This document shows positions 1,478-32,109 of a stretch of 64,000 bases of DNA, piece after piece (within the stretch, counting starts at the first letter, position 1; the number at the start of each line of letters is the position of its first letter). Source of the stretch: a bacterium (GTDB lineage: Bacteria; Planctomycetota; JAFGQW01); assembly GCA_030426805.1 (NCBI GenBank), contig JAUHXU010000003.1:729488-793487 (forward strand). Direction: 5' to 3'. A model generated the notes under the pieces. It did not search any database. It was not told the DNA's origin and was given only the letters and a program-made list of their open reading frames with translations. Both the position numbers and the translations under genes were made by a program.

Positions 1478-1926
1478 GTGTCCAGCGCCCCTTTCAGCAG
1501 CCGCCGCAACTTCTCGATCCCGTATCGCCATCGACTGCCGACCGTGTCCTCGGGCACGTCGAGCGCCTCGGCCACCTCGCGCGCGGTCATCCCGTGCCAC
1601 ACGCGCAGCACGACGACGTCGCGCTGGGTCGCGGGCAGCGCCGAGAGCGCCCGGTGGATCGCCTCGACGTCCACGTCGGGCGATCGATCGAGCACCGCGA
1701 GATCCTCGGGCGCCGGCGCGTCGTCCGCGACGAGCGCGACCGGCAGCGCCCGCCGCGCGGCGCGGAACAGGTATGCCCGCGGCCGCTCGACGAATCGCCC
1801 CGCCGCGATCGCCGCCGCGAACACGTCGTGCACGACGTCCTCGGCGCGACCGCGGTCGAGCCCACGCCCGACGAGGTAGCCGAACAGCGCCGCCGCGTCC
1901 CGGTCGTAGATCGCTCGCCAGTCCAT
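1474..1926 (-). CDS. ECF-family RNA polymerase sigma factor
   Basis: At 150 residues this has the two-domain layout of an ECF sigma factor. Region 2 (about residues 5-65) includes the helix GRAEDVVHDVFAAAI, which binds core polymerase and the -10 element. Region 4 (about 95-148) carries the turn MTAREVAEALDVPEDTV, typical of sigma4 -35 recognition. The start chosen is ATG at 1926; longer reading to the right runs into low-complexity sequence. The next two genes overlap it by ATGA junctions, giving a three-gene operon. The regulated genes cannot be read from the window; ECF operons commonly autoregulate. Confidence 0.88.
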   Translation of the reverse strand: MDWRAIYDRDAAALFGYLVGRGLDRGRAEDVVHDVFAAAIAAGRFVERPRAYLFRAARRALPVALVADDAPAPEDLAVLDRSPDVDVEAIHRALSALPATQRDVVVLRVWHGMTAREVAEALDVPEDTVGSRWRYGIEKLRRLLKGALDT

Positions 1927-2017
1927 GCAATCCGTTAGAGTCGCAACGCCCCCCGATCCGTCTACGATTCCGAGATTCCGCCGCAATCTCGGTCTCGGGA
2001 TCGAGAGCTTTCGGGGA

Positions 2018-2103
2018 CCTCCCCCTTCGCCCTGTCCCCATCGACATCGATCCAAGCCGCAAGGGTGCGATCGACGTCGACGGTGACAGGGCTGCGGGGG
2101 AGG
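2018..2103. repeat. Long imperfect inverted repeat
   Basis: Arms 2018-2052 and 2069-2103 are reverse complements over about 35 bases with about five mismatches, around a 16-base centre. The inner part pairs ATCGACATCGATC with GATCGACGTCGACG-type sequence. It could form a strong hairpin in RNA or be a palindromic repeat element. It is too G/C-rich at its base and lacks a T-run, so it is not a standard terminator. Confidence 0.7.
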
Positions 2104-2326
2104 GCTGCGGGGGAGGTGGCCGGCGCGGTTGGGTTTGGGTGCCCTTGGCGCGCGGATTGTGCACCACTCAGGCGGCATGTTTGCGTTTGGCGGCCTCGTC
2201 TTGCACCCATGCGGCCGCGAGGCACCGGCATGGACGTCGATCGGGTGCAGGATCATCGTGCCAAGCGCACGCATCACGAGAATTGGTGCAGAACCGGCCC
2301 GCCAAACGCAGCGAACGAACTCGCGC

Positions 2327-2428
2327 GGGGTCGCTGGCGCAGATCTGACGCGAAACGGGACAAGATCGGCGAAGCGAGGGGTCGCTGGAGCGATTCTGAC
2401 GCGGATTGGGACAGATCGGGCGCAGCGA
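2327..2428. repeat. 51-bp imperfect tandem repeat, two clear copies
   Basis: GGGGTCGCTGG at 2327-2337 recurs at 2378-2388, exactly 51 bases later, and each copy is followed by a related stretch containing TCTGACGCG and GGGACA. A weaker upstream unit may start near 2276. The period is a multiple of three, so one minus-strand frame reads a 17-residue repeat, but no start or ribosome site supports a protein. Confidence 0.65.
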
Positions 2429-2589
2429 GCTTCTGCCCATACAACGCGGGCGCCGCCACCTCCCCGGAGAGCCCCTCGCCGTCGGCGTCGGCCGCAACCG
2501 AGACGTGCCGGCGTCGGCGGTGAGGGGTTCGGAGGGGAGGCTCCCCGAGAGAGCTCCGAACCGGAGGTCGAGGCTGTAGTCCGCCGCGA

Positions 2590-3924
2590 TCAGTCTGTCG
2601 ACGGGCGGGGGAGTCGGATCGCGATCCAGAGGGGGATCACGAGAGCGGCGGCGCCGATCGCGTAGGCGCCGGTCGCGCCGCACCGCCAGTAGAGCACGCC
2701 GGCCGCGAACGGGCCGATCGCGCGGGCGAGGGAGCCCATCGACCGGAAGATCCCGAGGATTCGGCCCTGGTGGCCGGCCGGGGTGTAGAGCGAGACGAGG
2801 GCGGTCAAGCACGGCATCACGCACGCGCCGCCGACGGTCAACACGAACAGGCCGGCGTAGAGTGTCCACGCATTCGGCGCGAACCCGACGATCGCGAGCC
2901 CGGGAATCGTCAACGCGATGCCGGCGCGCGCGAGCCGCGCCTCGCCGATCGCGTGGGCACGCCTGCGGACGAACCCGCCCTGCACACCGGCGATCACGAC
3001 GCCGATGAACGCGAACATCAGCGCGTTCTTGCCGGGCCCGTAGCCGAAGCGCTCGGCGGCGAGGAAGACGAGCGTGAACTCCATCCCGCTGAACAGCAGC
3101 AGGTAGACGAAGTAGCTCGTGATCCCGCGTGCCGCACCGGGGAACGCGCGCGCCTCGCCGAGTCGGAACGGGTTGATCGTTCGGCGGGGTCGGTCCGACG
3201 CTTCATCGCCGGGCTTGCGCGTCTCGTCGAACACGAACAGGACGAACGCGAGGTTCGCGAGCGCGAGCACGAGCGAGCCGGCCGCCGCGAGCGAGAACGG
3301 GCTCAGCCCGAACCAGCGCCCGTCCGCCGATCCGGCCAGCTCCCACTGCGCGAGCGCACCGCCGATCGCCGGCCCGAGCAGAAACCCGAGCCCGAACGCG
3401 ATGCCGATGATCGCCATCCCGCGCGACCGGTTCTCGGCGCTCGTCACGTCCGCGACCGCCGCGGTCGCGACGCTGATGTTGCCGGCCATCGCACCGGCGA
3501 GCACCCGCGACACGAAGAACAGCGCGAAGCTCGCCGCGAAGAACCACAGCGCGTAGCTCGCGACGAGCCCGGTGACGCACAGCGCGAGCACCGGCTTTCG
3601 GCCGATCCGATCCGACAGGCCGCCCCACACCGGGGCGAAGACGTACTGCAACAGCCCGTAGATCGACCCGAGCAGCCCGCCGAAGAACGCGATGTGCACG
3701 TGCGACGCATCGCCGCCGCCGATCCAGCCCACCGCGTCGACGACGAATCGATCGAGCCAGGCGAAGACACCGCCGGCATCGTTGGCCGCGACGCGGTAGT
3801 GCTCCAACATCCGCGGAAACAGCGGAAAGACGACGCTGAAGCCGACCAAATCGAGAAACAGCGTCACGAAGACGACGCCGAGCGTGCGCTTCGTCGCGGG
3901 CGTGGTGGTGGCCTCGGTCGACAT
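2590..3924 (-). CDS. Major facilitator superfamily transporter, TetA-like group
   Basis: This 444-residue protein has about 12 hydrophobic segments. The first, with LFLDLVGFSVVFPLFPRML, matches the N-terminus of TetA/MdtG-like drug:proton antiporters. The loop between helices 2 and 3 carries LSDRIGRKPVLALC, which is the MFS signature GxLxDRxGRR. The loop after the first helix is unusually long (about residues 45-80), and the central loop is charged. It probably exports a small molecule using the proton gradient; the substrate cannot be inferred and tetracycline resistance should not be assumed. A GGGGA sequence sits about 10 bases before the ATG. It stands alone on its strand. Confidence 0.88.
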   Translation of the reverse strand: MSTEATTTPATKRTLGVVFVTLFLDLVGFSVVFPLFPRMLEHYRVAANDAGGVFAWLDRFVVDAVGWIGGGDASHVHIAFFGGLLGSIYGLLQYVFAPVWGGLSDRIGRKPVLALCVTGLVASYALWFFAASFALFFVSRVLAGAMAGNISVATAAVADVTSAENRSRGMAIIGIAFGLGFLLGPAIGGALAQWELAGSADGRWFGLSPFSLAAAGSLVLALANLAFVLFVFDETRKPGDEASDRPRRTINPFRLGEARAFPGAARGITSYFVYLLLFSGMEFTLVFLAAERFGYGPGKNALMFAFIGVVIAGVQGGFVRRRAHAIGEARLARAGIALTIPGLAIVGFAPNAWTLYAGLFVLTVGGACVMPCLTALVSLYTPAGHQGRILGIFRSMGSLARAIGPFAAGVLYWRCGATGAYAIGAAALVIPLWIAIRLPRPSTD

Positions 3925-26806: not shown

Positions 26807-26883
26807 GGGCGATTAGCTCAGTTGGCTAGAGCACCTGCCTTACAAGCAGGGGGTCACTGGTTCGAGTCCAGTATCGCCCACCA
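26807..26883 (+). tRNA. tRNA-Val, anticodon TAC, with encoded CCA
   Basis: The cloverleaf can be drawn by hand. The acceptor GGGCGAT pairs with ATCGCCC. The D arm is GCTC/GAGC. The anticodon stem CCTGC/GCAGG encloses CTTACAA, so the anticodon is TAC (26841-26843), reading GUA valine codons. The T stem ACTGG/CCAGT encloses TTCGAGT. The discriminator A is at 26880 and CCA at 26881-26883. Confidence 0.97.
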
Positions 26884-27022: not shown

Positions 27023-28000
27023 ATGAGAGTCACCCGCGTAGTCGTAGCCGCACTTTCGCTTTCCGCGTTGGCCATCACTGCGAGCGCGCAACCGCGACCG
27101 TCGGTCGTGACGCCGCCGGCGGGGCCGCAGGTCGCGTGGTTCGGGACGTGGGCCGGCGGGTTGGCGGAAGCGAAGCGGACGAAGCGTCCGATCCTGCTGG
27201 TGTCGGCCGCGCCGCATTGCCGGATGGTGCCGGGGGTTTGGTGACCGGGCAAGCAGAGCATGGACAGGAGTTTCCTGTCGCAGAAGGACGTGATCGAAGC
27301 CTCCCGCGACTTCGTGTGCATCCGGCTCGCCACGTACGAGAGCGCTGCCGAGGCGAAGGTGCTCAAATCGATCTGGGTGTCGCGCGACGGCGACATCAAG
27401 AACACGACGTTCGCAATCCTCTCGCCGGACGGGCGCCGCCTGCTGACCGATGCCGGCCGCGGACCCGACTGGGCGCTCGGCCGCGGTAGCGCCGCCGAGC
27501 ATGCCCAGCAGATGACGCGAATCGCGCGCGAACACCGCACCTCGCAGTCGCCCGCGGCGCTCCCGACGTGCGCCGACCTGCGACGCGCGCTGAACATCGC
27601 CGCGTGCGACATGCAGCCGCTCGTCGTCGCGATCGGCAAGCCCGGCGAACCGTGGATCGCGAAGTCGCTCGCGAAGCTCGCGTGGAACGACGACTTCATC
27701 GGCCGCTTCGTCTGGGCGACGGCGTCGCGTGATGAACTCGACGCGATCGACGGAGTCGGCGCGAAGGACAAGCTCATCGTCGTCCAGCCGGACGACTACG
27801 GGCTGACCGGGACGGTGATCGCACGCAGCGCATCGCGGCCGACCGCGATCGCGAAAACACTCCGCGCCGGGCTCGACGCATTCCGCGTCGGCGAGAAGGA
27901 CTCGCGCCGCCACATCCGCCGCGGGCAGCGCACCGACAAACAGTGGAAGCCCGCGATCGAGGTGACGGACGGCCCGACCGCCCGCCGCCGCGACCGCTGA
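27023..28000 (+). CDS. Exported thioredoxin-like protein, putative selenoprotein with in-frame TGA at codon 74
   Basis: ATG 27023 follows GAGGAACAGCACC. The frame runs 73 codons, meets TGA at 27242-27244 and continues in the same frame, with the same codon bias, to 28000, for 325 residues if TGA is read as selenocysteine. A signal peptide ends at about residue 22 (ASAQ). Then comes KRTKRPILLVSAAPHCRMVP, the strand-and-loop of a thioredoxin fold with Cys66 in the active-site position, then GVW-TGA-PGK (Sec74). FVCIRLATYES, NTTFAILSPDGRRLL and a basic C-tail follow. A SECIS-like hairpin lies 19 bases after the TGA. TGA is a normal stop elsewhere here. The alternative is a nonsense-mutated gene (Cys or Trp codon) or two separate products. 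Confidence 0.62.
27242..27282 (+). promoter_or_regulatory. Candidate bacterial SECIS element
   Basis: The TGA at 27242-27244 is followed by a perfect seven-base stem, GACAGGA (27263-27269) with TCCTGTC (27273-27279), and a three-base loop GTT. With G27280 bulged, two further pairs (T27261-A27282 and G27262-C27281) extend the base. The loop begins with G and is 26 bases from the TGA, which agrees with known bacterial SECIS elements, where SelB binds the loop. It lies inside the reading frame, as bacterial SECIS elements must. Confidence 0.55.
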
Positions 28001-29352: not shown

Positions 29353-30609
29353 TCAGTCGATCGGCGGGCTGCTCGACTTGGCGAACACGCGCACGAACTC
29401 GCGGCCCGGTGCGATGACTCCACTGAAGGACGCGAGCGTCTCGTCGTAGTGATGCCGCATGCCCTCCACGTCCGCGGTCTTGCACGCGATCGCGCCGAAG
29501 AACTCGCCGACGGCACCATGGCGCTCGACGTGGTACTCGGGCCCGTAGATCGTCATCGACCCCGGGGTGACGCTCGACAGCTTGATCGTCGTGTCTACAC
29601 CGGCCGGTATCCCACGGACGTCGAAGGGGTGCGCATACACCTGTAGATTGCGCGGGACGTTGGACGTGTTCATCACGAGGCCGAGCGATGCATCGAACGA
29701 CCCGGTCACGAAGATCCTCGTCTCGCCCGTCGCCCAGAGCACGGAGCCGAGGCCGAGTTCGAGCGACGAGAAGAAGTACGTCCCCGGCTGCAGGAACAGC
29801 TCCGTCCCCGCCGACAGCCGGAGCGACTTGTCCGTCGCGCCATAGGTATAGCCACCGATCGCGGTCCACGAGCCGTTGGCATTGGTATCGTGTGCGCGCT
29901 CGAACGCCTCGATGGGCGGCGCCGGCATCTCGACCGGCTCGGCGAGTTCATACTCCTCACCGGCCACATGGGTCGCCGCTTGCGACTCGAACGACTCGCC
30001 GGCCCCGAACGCGACGTCGCCGCGAAACACGCTCGTCCCGTCAGCCGTGATCGTCCCGTTCGACGAGACGCGCGCATTCTCGTTGCCGTGCAATCCCCAG
30101 AAGTCGAGGTTCAGCGCCTGCAGCGTGTAGAGGCCCTTGTCCGAGTCGTAGCTGTCGTAGTGCACGCGAGCGATCTCGGCACCCTCGCGGGTCCGCAGCG
30201 CATCGGTGAACGCGAAGCCGGGCCCCTTGCGCACGACGAGTTCGATTCGACGCGGAATCCCGTTCACGGCGCCTTCCGACAAGACTCGGTAGTGGCTCCG
30301 CGCGAGTTCGGTCGTCTCCGCCTCGTACACGCCGCCGCCGAAGTCGCCGGCGACGCGGCCAATGCCCTTGCGCGCATCGAGGTCCCGGTTCTCGCGAACC
30401 TCGTCGAGCGCCCGCAGCGCACCGGCCTCCGCGATCGCAAGCGCCTGGACCGCGCAGCGACTCACCTCGACCCGCTTCATGTTCGACCGACCGGCGAGCA
30501 ACGCCGACGAGCCGATCGCGATCAACAGCACGACCGCCGCGAGAACGGGGACCATGATTACACCCCGCTCGGACGCCCTCCATACTGGCTCAGTTGCGTG
30601 GCTGTACAT
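29353..30609 (-). CDS. PilX-like prepilin-associated protein
   Basis: This 418-residue protein starts at ATG 30609 with a short leader ending in SERG, then VIMVPVLAAVVLLIAIGSSA, the hydrophobic N-helix of a pilin-like protein. The residue at +5 is Pro instead of Glu, as in PilX/GspK-type minor components. CAVQALAIAEAGALRALDEV is the usual PilX helix. The rest is a beta-helix-like domain (SVFRGDVAFGAGESFES, LFLQPGTYFFSSLELGLG). It is the last gene of a three-gene prepilin operon and overlaps the preceding gene by 20 bases. It likely forms part of a type II secretion or type IV pilus tip. Confidence 0.78.
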   Translation of the reverse strand: MYSHATEPVWRASERGVIMVPVLAAVVLLIAIGSSALLAGRSNMKRVEVSRCAVQALAIAEAGALRALDEVRENRDLDARKGIGRVAGDFGGGVYEAETTELARSHYRVLSEGAVNGIPRRIELVVRKGPGFAFTDALRTREGAEIARVHYDSYDSDKGLYTLQALNLDFWGLHGNENARVSSNGTITADGTSVFRGDVAFGAGESFESQAATHVAGEEYELAEPVEMPAPPIEAFERAHDTNANGSWTAIGGYTYGATDKSLRLSAGTELFLQPGTYFFSSLELGLGSVLWATGETRIFVTGSFDASLGLVMNTSNVPRNLQVYAHPFDVRGIPAGVDTTIKLSSVTPGSMTIYGPEYHVERHGAVGEFFGAIACKTADVEGMRHHYDETLASFSGVIAPGREFVRVFAKSSSPPID

Positions 30610-31114
30610 GAAGCCTCCTCTTCACCGCGACTCTGCGGCCGTCCGGTGTCGTCGTCTCGATCACGAGGCACGCGACAAGGCGCGAGCCATCGCGGGCGAA
30701 CGCCACAGCCTCGATTCCGCTCGCGAGTCGCACCCTGGACGGCCCGCTCTCCAACCACAGTTCGCCATCGACGAACGCGAGCGTCTCCGCGCGTCGAACG
30801 ACCGGGTCCTGCCCGCGCGTCGCGTTCGTGTCGAACGACTCTGCTCGTTCGTACTCGAGCCGGTCAGCCGTCTCGGGCCACGTGGGCAGCGCATCGAGCG
30901 CATCGGCCGGCACCGTGCGCAGGTGGTGCCGGATGCGTTGCCCCACCCGTCGGGTCCGCTCCGCCGCTTGCTCTCGGGTCATCATCGCGCGGTCCGAGGC
31001 GACACTTCCGTGCATCGCGCTCAGCACCGGAATCGCCGCCGTCGCCGCGAACGCCGCGGCGACCACGACTTCCAGCACACTCAGCCCGCTCTGGCCGCAC
31101 ATTCGCATCCTCAT
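30590..31114 (-). CDS. Type IV prepilin-like (pseudopilin) protein
   Basis: From ATG 31114 this gives 174 residues; GGGAG lies seven bases upstream. The leader is MRMRMCGQSG, and the cut after the second Gly yields LSVLEVVVAAAFAATAAIPV, with Glu at +5, as prepilin peptidase and assembly require. The remaining domain is small and mixed, with FVDGELWLESGPSRVRLASG. It starts two bases after the stop of the preceding gene. It resembles PilW/GspJ minor pilins. A longer frame to 31279 overlaps the upstream gene and is not used. Confidence 0.8.
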   Translation of the reverse strand: MRMRMCGQSGLSVLEVVVAAAFAATAAIPVLSAMHGSVASDRAMMTREQAAERTRRVGQRIRHHLRTVPADALDALPTWPETADRLEYERAESFDTNATRGQDPVVRRAETLAFVDGELWLESGPSRVRLASGIEAVAFARDGSRLVACLVIETTTPDGRRVAVKRRLHVQPRN

Positions 31115-31116
31115 GA

Positions 31117-31638
31117 TCAGTCTCCCGCCGTGAGTACCGCGGCGAGCTGCAACCGCTGATCGCCCCCGCTGCTCCGCCAGCGCACTTCGACCAGCACCGG
31201 GAGACACGCGTAGCTCGTGTTCTTCGTCGACGCGTCGATCACGCCGTCGTGATCGAGGTCGCGGGGCATGCCGAGGCACCTGTCATGCACGTCCTCGCGC
31301 AACGCACCCCCGATGGTCGGAAACCGAATCGCGCCGACGCGGCCGTCTTTGTCGCCTGTCGCCGGCTCGAGCCCCTCGACGTCGAACGACGCGCTCGCCC
31401 CACTGCCGTAGTGGGAGAAGACGCTCCCGAAGGCATGCCCTCGGATTTCCTCGAGCTTGTCCTCGGCCGCGGCGAGCGCGTGCCGCCGCGTGTCGTTGAA
31501 CGAGGTCTGCGAGAGATTGGTGACCGTCAGCGACGCGTGCGAGAGGATCCCGAGTGCGAGGATCGCACCCCCGAGCATGATCTCGATGAAGCTGAATCCG
31601 CGCTCGCGTCGGCGCTTCGCCTTCCTGTCTCGTCGCAT
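31117..31638 (-). CDS. Type IV prepilin-like (PilV/GspI-type) protein
   Basis: From ATG 31638, behind GGAGGG, this gives 173 residues. The basic leader ends in RRRERG, and the mature part starts FSFIEIMLGGAILALGILSH, with the +5 Glu of pilins. ALAAAEDKLEEIRG after the helix is characteristic of PilV/GspI minor pilins. It heads the prepilin operon read leftward. A Ca-binding-like DLDHDGVID lies near the end. The pilus or secretion machine itself is not in the window. Confidence 0.82.
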   Translation of the reverse strand: MRRDRKAKRRRERGFSFIEIMLGGAILALGILSHASLTVTNLSQTSFNDTRRHALAAAEDKLEEIRGHAFGSVFSHYGSGASASFDVEGLEPATGDKDGRVGAIRFPTIGGALREDVHDRCLGMPRDLDHDGVIDASTKNTSYACLPVLVEVRWRSSGGDQRLQLAAVLTAGD

Positions 31639-32109
31639 GGTCGTGCCCTCCACATCGATCCCGCTCACCTGTCCTTATCGTCGGCGTCACTCGGGTGAAC
31701 TGCATTTGCTTTACCGGTGCAAGGAATTTCGTCTCCGTGCAAATGGCGCTCTATGGCGCGCTCCGGTGGCGAGTGCGACGCGATTGGCCGCCGAAGAAAC
31801 TCTGCATTGTCTCGCGTTGCAGGCTCTGATTGTCATCAGAAGAAAAGCGCCTTCGCGCGGGAGGCAAATCGTTGACGGGACGCGCGCCACCGGCATTGTC
31901 CAGAACGATAATCACGCGTGATTCTGCAGTTTTCATGAGCGTGTAAACGCGCTCGAAACCGTCGTTTCGCCCGCGACATCCGCACGCTCTCGTAGCGGAA
32001 CGAAAAACGTGATGCAACGAGTGCGATCGAGGAGTCGTTCCGCCGCGTGAATCGAACGAACCCGAGAAGAACTCGGCGGTTGGGACGACTCTTGGAAGGG
32101 AAAAACCCC
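31639..32109. other. AT-richer intergenic region between divergent genes
   Basis: This 471-base stretch separates the prepilin operon from the propeller-like gene and must contain both promoters. Base composition is visibly lower in GC than the surroundings (31,690-32,060). GTGCAA occurs at 31,717-31,722 and again at 31,737-31,742, spaced by 20. A 61-codon frame on the minus strand (31,751-31,936) starts MKTAESRVIIVLDNAGGARP, but its codon use is unlike neighbouring genes and it has no ribosome site, so I do not call it. I see no clear -35/-10 pair. Confidence 0.5.

Follow-up and report, generated by a model that had tools for sequence, protein, structure and literature searches.

A putative exported selenoprotein with predicted tandem thioredoxin folds and a covarying SECIS hairpin in a planctomycete genome

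The window analysed here, a 64,000-nucleotide stretch of a planctomycete genome (C6:729488-793487 of an assembly of 5.58 Mb in 6 contigs), contains a forward-strand frame that starts with ATG at 27023 and ends at 28000 with a TGA read as stop (27998-28000); its sole interruption is another TGA at 27242-27244, codon 74. An earlier note, made from the letters alone, had described such a single frame with one TGA, and this was confirmed in the sequence. Its statement that codon bias is equal on either side of the TGA is borne out by a GC3 of 0.82 before and 0.91 after the codon, with lower values in the other two frames (0.66 and 0.53). The mechanical list of open reading frames gives an ORF from ATG 27260. 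The features of the locus are as follows.

27023..28000, + strand: putative selenoprotein gene, 325 residues plus stop; full-length homologs have TGA at the equivalent place
27023..27088, + strand: probable export signal, residues 1-22 (MRVTRVVVAALSLSALAITASA), from the N-terminus by eye
27131..27478, + strand: predicted thioredoxin domain 1, residues 37-152, with Cys66, Sec74 and Cys99 (Thioredoxin_7 at 39-105, below cut-off; AlphaFold; Foldseek)
27218..27220, + strand: Cys66 codon; the residue, in the loop preceding Sec, is a candidate for resolution; 66/66 aligned members
27242..27244, + strand: TGA codon assigned to Sec74, where helix 75-83 has its N-terminal end; TGA in all checked family members
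27263-27269 / 27273-27279, + strand: stem of the SECIS hairpin, with loop GUU at 27270-27272 (alignment, covariation, synonymous-codon control, and the divergent stems of L131, L176 and L179)
27317..27319, + strand: Cys99 codon, in the following strand; 66/66 aligned members, and also in generic Thioredoxin_7/DUF255 relatives
27563..27886, + strand: predicted thioredoxin-like domain 2, residues 181-288, degenerate and lacking a redox motif (AlphaFold; Foldseek)

A tRNA-Val gene (anticodon TAC; 26807-26883, + strand) lies directly upstream of the selenoprotein gene, and three consecutive genes on the - strand (29353-31668) encode proteins with prepilin-like N-termini in the style of type IV pilins or pseudopilins. 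Clustering of neighbours across the family returned only lineage-bound neighbour families, none of which is present at the window; elsewhere they include EF-hand-like proteins in some lineages and a conserved unrelated block in one planctomycete family. Since there is no recurrent neighbour at the window, no partner is claimed. In one group of Verrucomicrobiota (L064, L072, L077, L078, L086, L089 and L098), the genes directly downstream on the same strand, at 0-79 bases, encode a sulfatase and then a DUF3500 protein, an arrangement that is perhaps an operon.

Full-length homologs were found at about 34-50% protein identity (with Sec written as Cys in the query), and their protein conservation runs on across the TGA. 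About 100 relatives were checked in other bacteria, all with TGA. The earlier note had proposed position 74 as the place where homologs would decide the matter: every complete homolog carries TGA there, and none only stops or has an unrelated residue. The family is present as a whole gene or a clear piece in 52 of 392 planctomycete genomes, in which all matches covering position 74 contain TGA; of the two apparent exceptions, G051 is a frame-changed copy whose other half has the TGA, and G331 is cut by a contig end. An alignment-based search of genome_contigs yielded 124 stretches encoding relatives, with TGA at codon 74 in 80/80 of those kept, while a single-protein search of the same collection, whose patterns were too specific, found no relatives. 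These relatives belong to Planctomycetota and Verrucomicrobiota, with a few records labelled Eremiobacterota, Armatimonadetes and Proteobacteria. Another phylum sample, made up of 289 genomes around that of L064 (labelled Verrucomicrobiia), contributed 3 matches, each of which has TGA. No Cys form was found among the 80 genome_contigs homologs, the 392 planctomycete genomes and the 289 further genomes; the searches used Cys at position 74 and were therefore biased toward Cys forms, and still none appeared. The next-best matches score at most 34 bits and belong to different thioredoxin families. A sequencing error at the TGA is ruled out, because independent genomes show the identical codon. 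A Verrucomicrobiota MAG (L071) carries two tandem family copies with TGA at 669 and 1791, both followed by the hairpin. A frame change just past the TGA/SECIS region is seen in L042 and in G051:C33:18884-19914, through either an assembly error or a real frameshift.

Beyond the TGA, the earlier note had pointed to a 7-bp stem (GACAGGA/TCCTGTC) with a GTT loop starting 19 bases after the codon, and the hairpin lies exactly as described. The bacterial SECIS model has a loop of 3-9 nt with G in the first two positions and a stem of 4-16 bp (PMC13188914), together with a UGA-loop spacing of 16-37 nt and an MFE <= -7.5 (PMC13188914, section 5). The window hairpin agrees with this published model in its GUU loop, its 7 bp, its distance of 25 nt from TGA to loop and its energy of -10.5 kcal/mol (24-nt hairpin). 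As a single-sequence observation, it proves little; related sequences carry it beyond chance. When a perfect stem of at least 7 bp, a loop of 3-9 nt having G early on, and a spacing of 16-37 nt were taken as criteria, a comparable hairpin was found at 35 of the 1289 TGAs of the window (2.7%), and the 59-nt stretch folds no better than its shuffles (z = 0.04).

The relatives were compared in a gap-free RNA alignment of 85 distinct 48-base stretches, each from the TGA on. Across this alignment, 94% of the cells of an 8-pair stem are paired, compensatory double changes occupy 33 cells against 6.7 after shuffling, and the covariation is 0.274 against 0.157; sliding the partner by 1-3 columns reduces the pairing to 28-58%. 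Because the stem lies inside coding sequence, synonymous codons were also shuffled according to each gene's own usage, and this control gave 4.6 of 8 pairs expected against 7.5 observed, with 7 pairs against 3.6 expected for the window's own stem (p = 0.004). The Ser codon that spans the loop start is AGT in 77/77 sequences having Ser there, compared with 9.7% of Ser codons elsewhere in the family genes; similarly, the codon of Arg82 is AGG in 54/57, compared with 5.1% elsewhere. Gln82 is seen only with Trp85, and Trp85 is paired with Gln82 in 10/11 cases; the replacement of Arg82/Leu85 by Gln82/Trp85 corresponds to AGG..CTG becoming CAG..TGG, by which the stem is preserved. In L179, the stem differs entirely in sequence (GAACA-GTT-TGTTC), with the loop and the position unchanged. 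On the other hand, in L063 and L036 the hairpin is poorly formed at the family's position, which counts against the SECIS reading. Judged by these alignments, the hairpin is maintained by compensatory change and imposes rare codons on the gene. These sequences make up a clean collection of bacterial SECIS elements with covariation, where base pairing can be seen to drive which amino acids occur together.

A check for selA, selB, selC and selD, which the earlier note had suggested, returned tRNA-Sec, selA, selB and selD in the genome of the window. The tRNA-Sec (RF01852, 77.4 bits; ARAGORN anticodon TCA) adjoins selA (482 bits), and selB (394 bits) is adjacent to selD (368 bits). The selD gene has an in-frame TGA of its own (context CAGUAGK), and its product is a selenoprotein too; in two further genes, at C3:560705 and C5:508933, a TGA lies within the frame where a redox residue is plausible. 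From the machinery, the TGA of selD and these two genes together, Sec decoding is well established by sequence in this organism. The first of the two (L163, C3:558500-563000; 1162-2610, + strand) encodes a putative selenoprotein of 483 residues with a C-terminal thioredoxin domain and the motif NPGUKGC, which is related to the VPGUxxT models (NF041383) but lies far under their cut-offs. The second (L162, C5:507000-511500; 1835-3079, + strand) encodes a putative selenoprotein of 415 residues with the TGA after LGCT (GCTUNNG), and has no match in NCBIfam or Pfam. Among the planctomycete genomes, selA is present in 49/52 that have the family and in 196/340 that do not (Fisher p = 5e-8, relatedness among genomes ignored). 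The three family-positive exceptions are MAGs whose assemblies lack selA, with tRNA-Sec present in one of them; behind the genome_contigs loci, 15/16 genomes have selA.

The AlphaFold model, built on a 66-sequence alignment (pLDDT 91.6, pTM 0.88), predicts one thioredoxin fold at about residues 37-152 and a second at about 181-288. The earlier description as a thioredoxin-like exported protein therefore holds for the thioredoxin part, through AlphaFold, Foldseek and a sub-cut-off Pfam match. The protein is also probably exported, as judged by eye from its N-terminus alone, in which residues 4-19 are modelled as a low-confidence helix and which is similar in homologs. The model places Sec74 at the N-terminal end of helix 75-83, and in comparison with generic relatives it falls on the WC of their CxxC; at position 77, where a resolving Cys would be expected, nearly all members have Lys or Tyr (UPGK/UPGY) and one has Phe. 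Cys66, Gly71, Trp73, Sec74, Pro75, Gly76 and Cys99, among others, are invariant in the 66 aligned members. Cys66, almost invariant in the wider family, lies in an extended loop. Variants are a small subgroup (L043, L123) with UKGK, whose loop Cys is displaced by at least one residue, and a GVFU motif in the divergent members L176, L179 and L180. The redox pair of Cys66 and Sec74 proposed in the earlier note is plausible, as both residues are strictly conserved (66/66 each); Cys99 is equally invariant. The existence of an entire family lacking Cys forms, and of the second thioredoxin domain, lay beyond what the earlier note could see. In L031 (21-1448, + strand), a family member is fused in one frame behind a PSCyt1 planctomycete cytochrome c domain, a fusion compatible with a part in envelope electron transfer.

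Based on these results, it is highly probable that 27023-28000 encodes an exported selenoprotein with SECIS-guided Sec at TGA 74 and tandem thioredoxin folds, which may act in envelope redox chemistry. The machinery, the conserved TGA and the covarying stem support Sec insertion at codon 74, as strongly as sequence data allow, and with it the selenoprotein with a SECIS-like hairpin that the earlier note had claimed. With the hairpin 25 nt downstream as guide, SelB and Sec-tRNA-Sec would decode TGA 74 as Sec. A redox function is suggested by the predicted fold and by conservation, and export, the resolving Cys, the reaction and the substrate are all inferred. In the cell envelope, the selenolate of Sec74 would attack a disulfide, a sulfenic acid or a peroxide; the mixed intermediate would be resolved by the loop Cys66 (or Cys99), giving a selenenylsulfide, which a thiol donor would reduce again.

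A selenoprotein that is a selenol peroxidase or a metal/metalloid binder on a thioredoxin scaffold, rather than a disulfide oxidoreductase, is possible but rather unlikely. The motif UPGK/Y without the second Cys of CxxC would suit such a protein, and many thioredoxin-fold bacterial selenoproteins are peroxiredoxin- or metal-related (PMC13188914, Table 1); however, Cys66 and Cys99 are conserved alongside Sec74, disulfide-exchange proteins share its tandem arrangement of thioredoxin domains, and no metal-resistance gene is found among the recurrent neighbour families. If the TGA were a real stop, the locus would encode a 73-residue exported peptide and a separate 246-residue protein from ATG 27260, or would be a pseudogene or a sequencing error. 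The ORF from 27260 in the mechanical list and the unexceptional hairpin of the single sequence are what such a reading can draw on, but independent assemblies show TGA at the equivalent codon in every family member, protein conservation and the predicted thioredoxin fold span it, and the covarying hairpin constrains the gene to rare codons; the stop codon or pseudogene reading is refuted comparatively and is very improbable. Reading of the TGA as Trp or another suppressor amino acid, or unspecific readthrough, is dismissed as scarcely credible, with nothing found in its favour, since TGA is a normal stop here, also for this very gene, as the earlier note had held in taking the code to be standard from other genes ending in TGA, the full Sec machinery is present and the family co-occurs with selA, the hairpin fits the published bacterial SECIS model (PMC13188914), and position 74 aligns with the catalytic Cys of relatives.

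The exported selenoprotein favoured here belongs to a family for which NCBIfam 20.0 (June 2026) has no model, with nothing better than E 3.5e-4 over 23 members. The family motif is likewise absent from the May 2026 inventory of 119 selenoprotein families (PMC13188914, Table 1), which includes those of Haft and Tolstoy 2025 and in which NF041199 and NF041383 are nearest. It is thus a new selenoprotein family relative to NCBIfam and to this inventory, and an earlier mention under another name is possible. SECIS-independent selenoprotein discovery relies on Cys/Sec homolog pairs (PMC13188914), and the family was possibly overlooked because of this dependence on Cys homologs. A Cys-less family is invisible both to such discovery and to gene callers, which truncate its members at the TGA or begin them at Met80. 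To our knowledge, Cys forms exist for nearly all selenoprotein families. The present family is apparently Sec-obligate, as far as the sampled sequences indicate. For the fuller account of this we see about an even chance: the active site, with a nucleophilic Sec, Lys/Tyr at the resolving position and a distant loop Cys, would be unworkable with Cys, and therefore no lineage would have reverted; the SECIS would have dictated protein sequence (Arg82/Leu85 to Gln82/Trp85); and the gene would be lost together with Sec decoding rather than converted to Cys. With this family, Planctomycetota and some Verrucomicrobiota gain a selenoprotein that is widespread and probably secreted, and there is a natural setting in which to study what Sec can do and Cys cannot.

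Among known systems, Foldseek matched yeast PDI, ERp44 and QSOX1 (a fragment) across both domains of the window protein, and DsbH, AGR2 and DsbD-gamma to its first domain, whereas a PDB sequence search gave only insignificant matches to AGR2. The tandem thioredoxin folds of the predicted structure are shared with PDI-type oxidoreductases. The full-length matches have low global TM-scores to PDI (0.19-0.29, by query or target), so the likeness is one of domain type and order, not of full superposition. Compared with PDI-type proteins, DsbH and DsbD-gamma, the window protein is bacterial, has Sec for the attacking Cys and shows ~14% identity; the CxxC active site of the PDI type is absent, with UPGK/Y instead. 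In DUF255/Thioredox_DsbH (PF03190) and Thioredoxin_7 (PF13899), WC...M..S and FVC align with WU...M..S and FVC of the window protein, but these proteins use CxxC and the window protein does not. Pfam Thioredoxin_7 scores 20.2-20.3 bits on it, below the gathering score of 27, and is matched by 20/23 family members at E<=0.1.

Two selenoprotein groups have Sec within a Thioredoxin_7-like domain. The NF041199 Trx7/PDZ (seleno)proteins show weak profile similarity to the window family (11 bits on the window protein against a cut-off of 300; best member E 3.5e-4), but their motif is CxxU, compared with C-x7-U-PGK/Y here, and the PDZ domain was not found in the window protein. The VPGUxxT (seleno)proteins NF041382/NF041383 (OS_HP5) have, as in the window, Sec where relatives have Cys. 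The window protein does not match these models at E<=10 (the cut-off of NF041383 is 275 bits), and the best E of 23 family members against them is 0.021; it differs in the motif PGxWUPGK/Y (VPGVWU in the window), the extended Cys loop and the second thioredoxin domain. Other Thioredoxin_7-like genes with an in-frame TGA, all weak matches, were encountered in L047 (PGUQTCKDF), L048 (ADWUGVCKQM) and L049 (GGTUPACDKM), which suggests that Planctomycetota have many selenoproteins of this sort. The distance from Sec to the conserved LS..V helix start that follows it is 10 residues both in L047 (VPGUQTC) and in the window protein.
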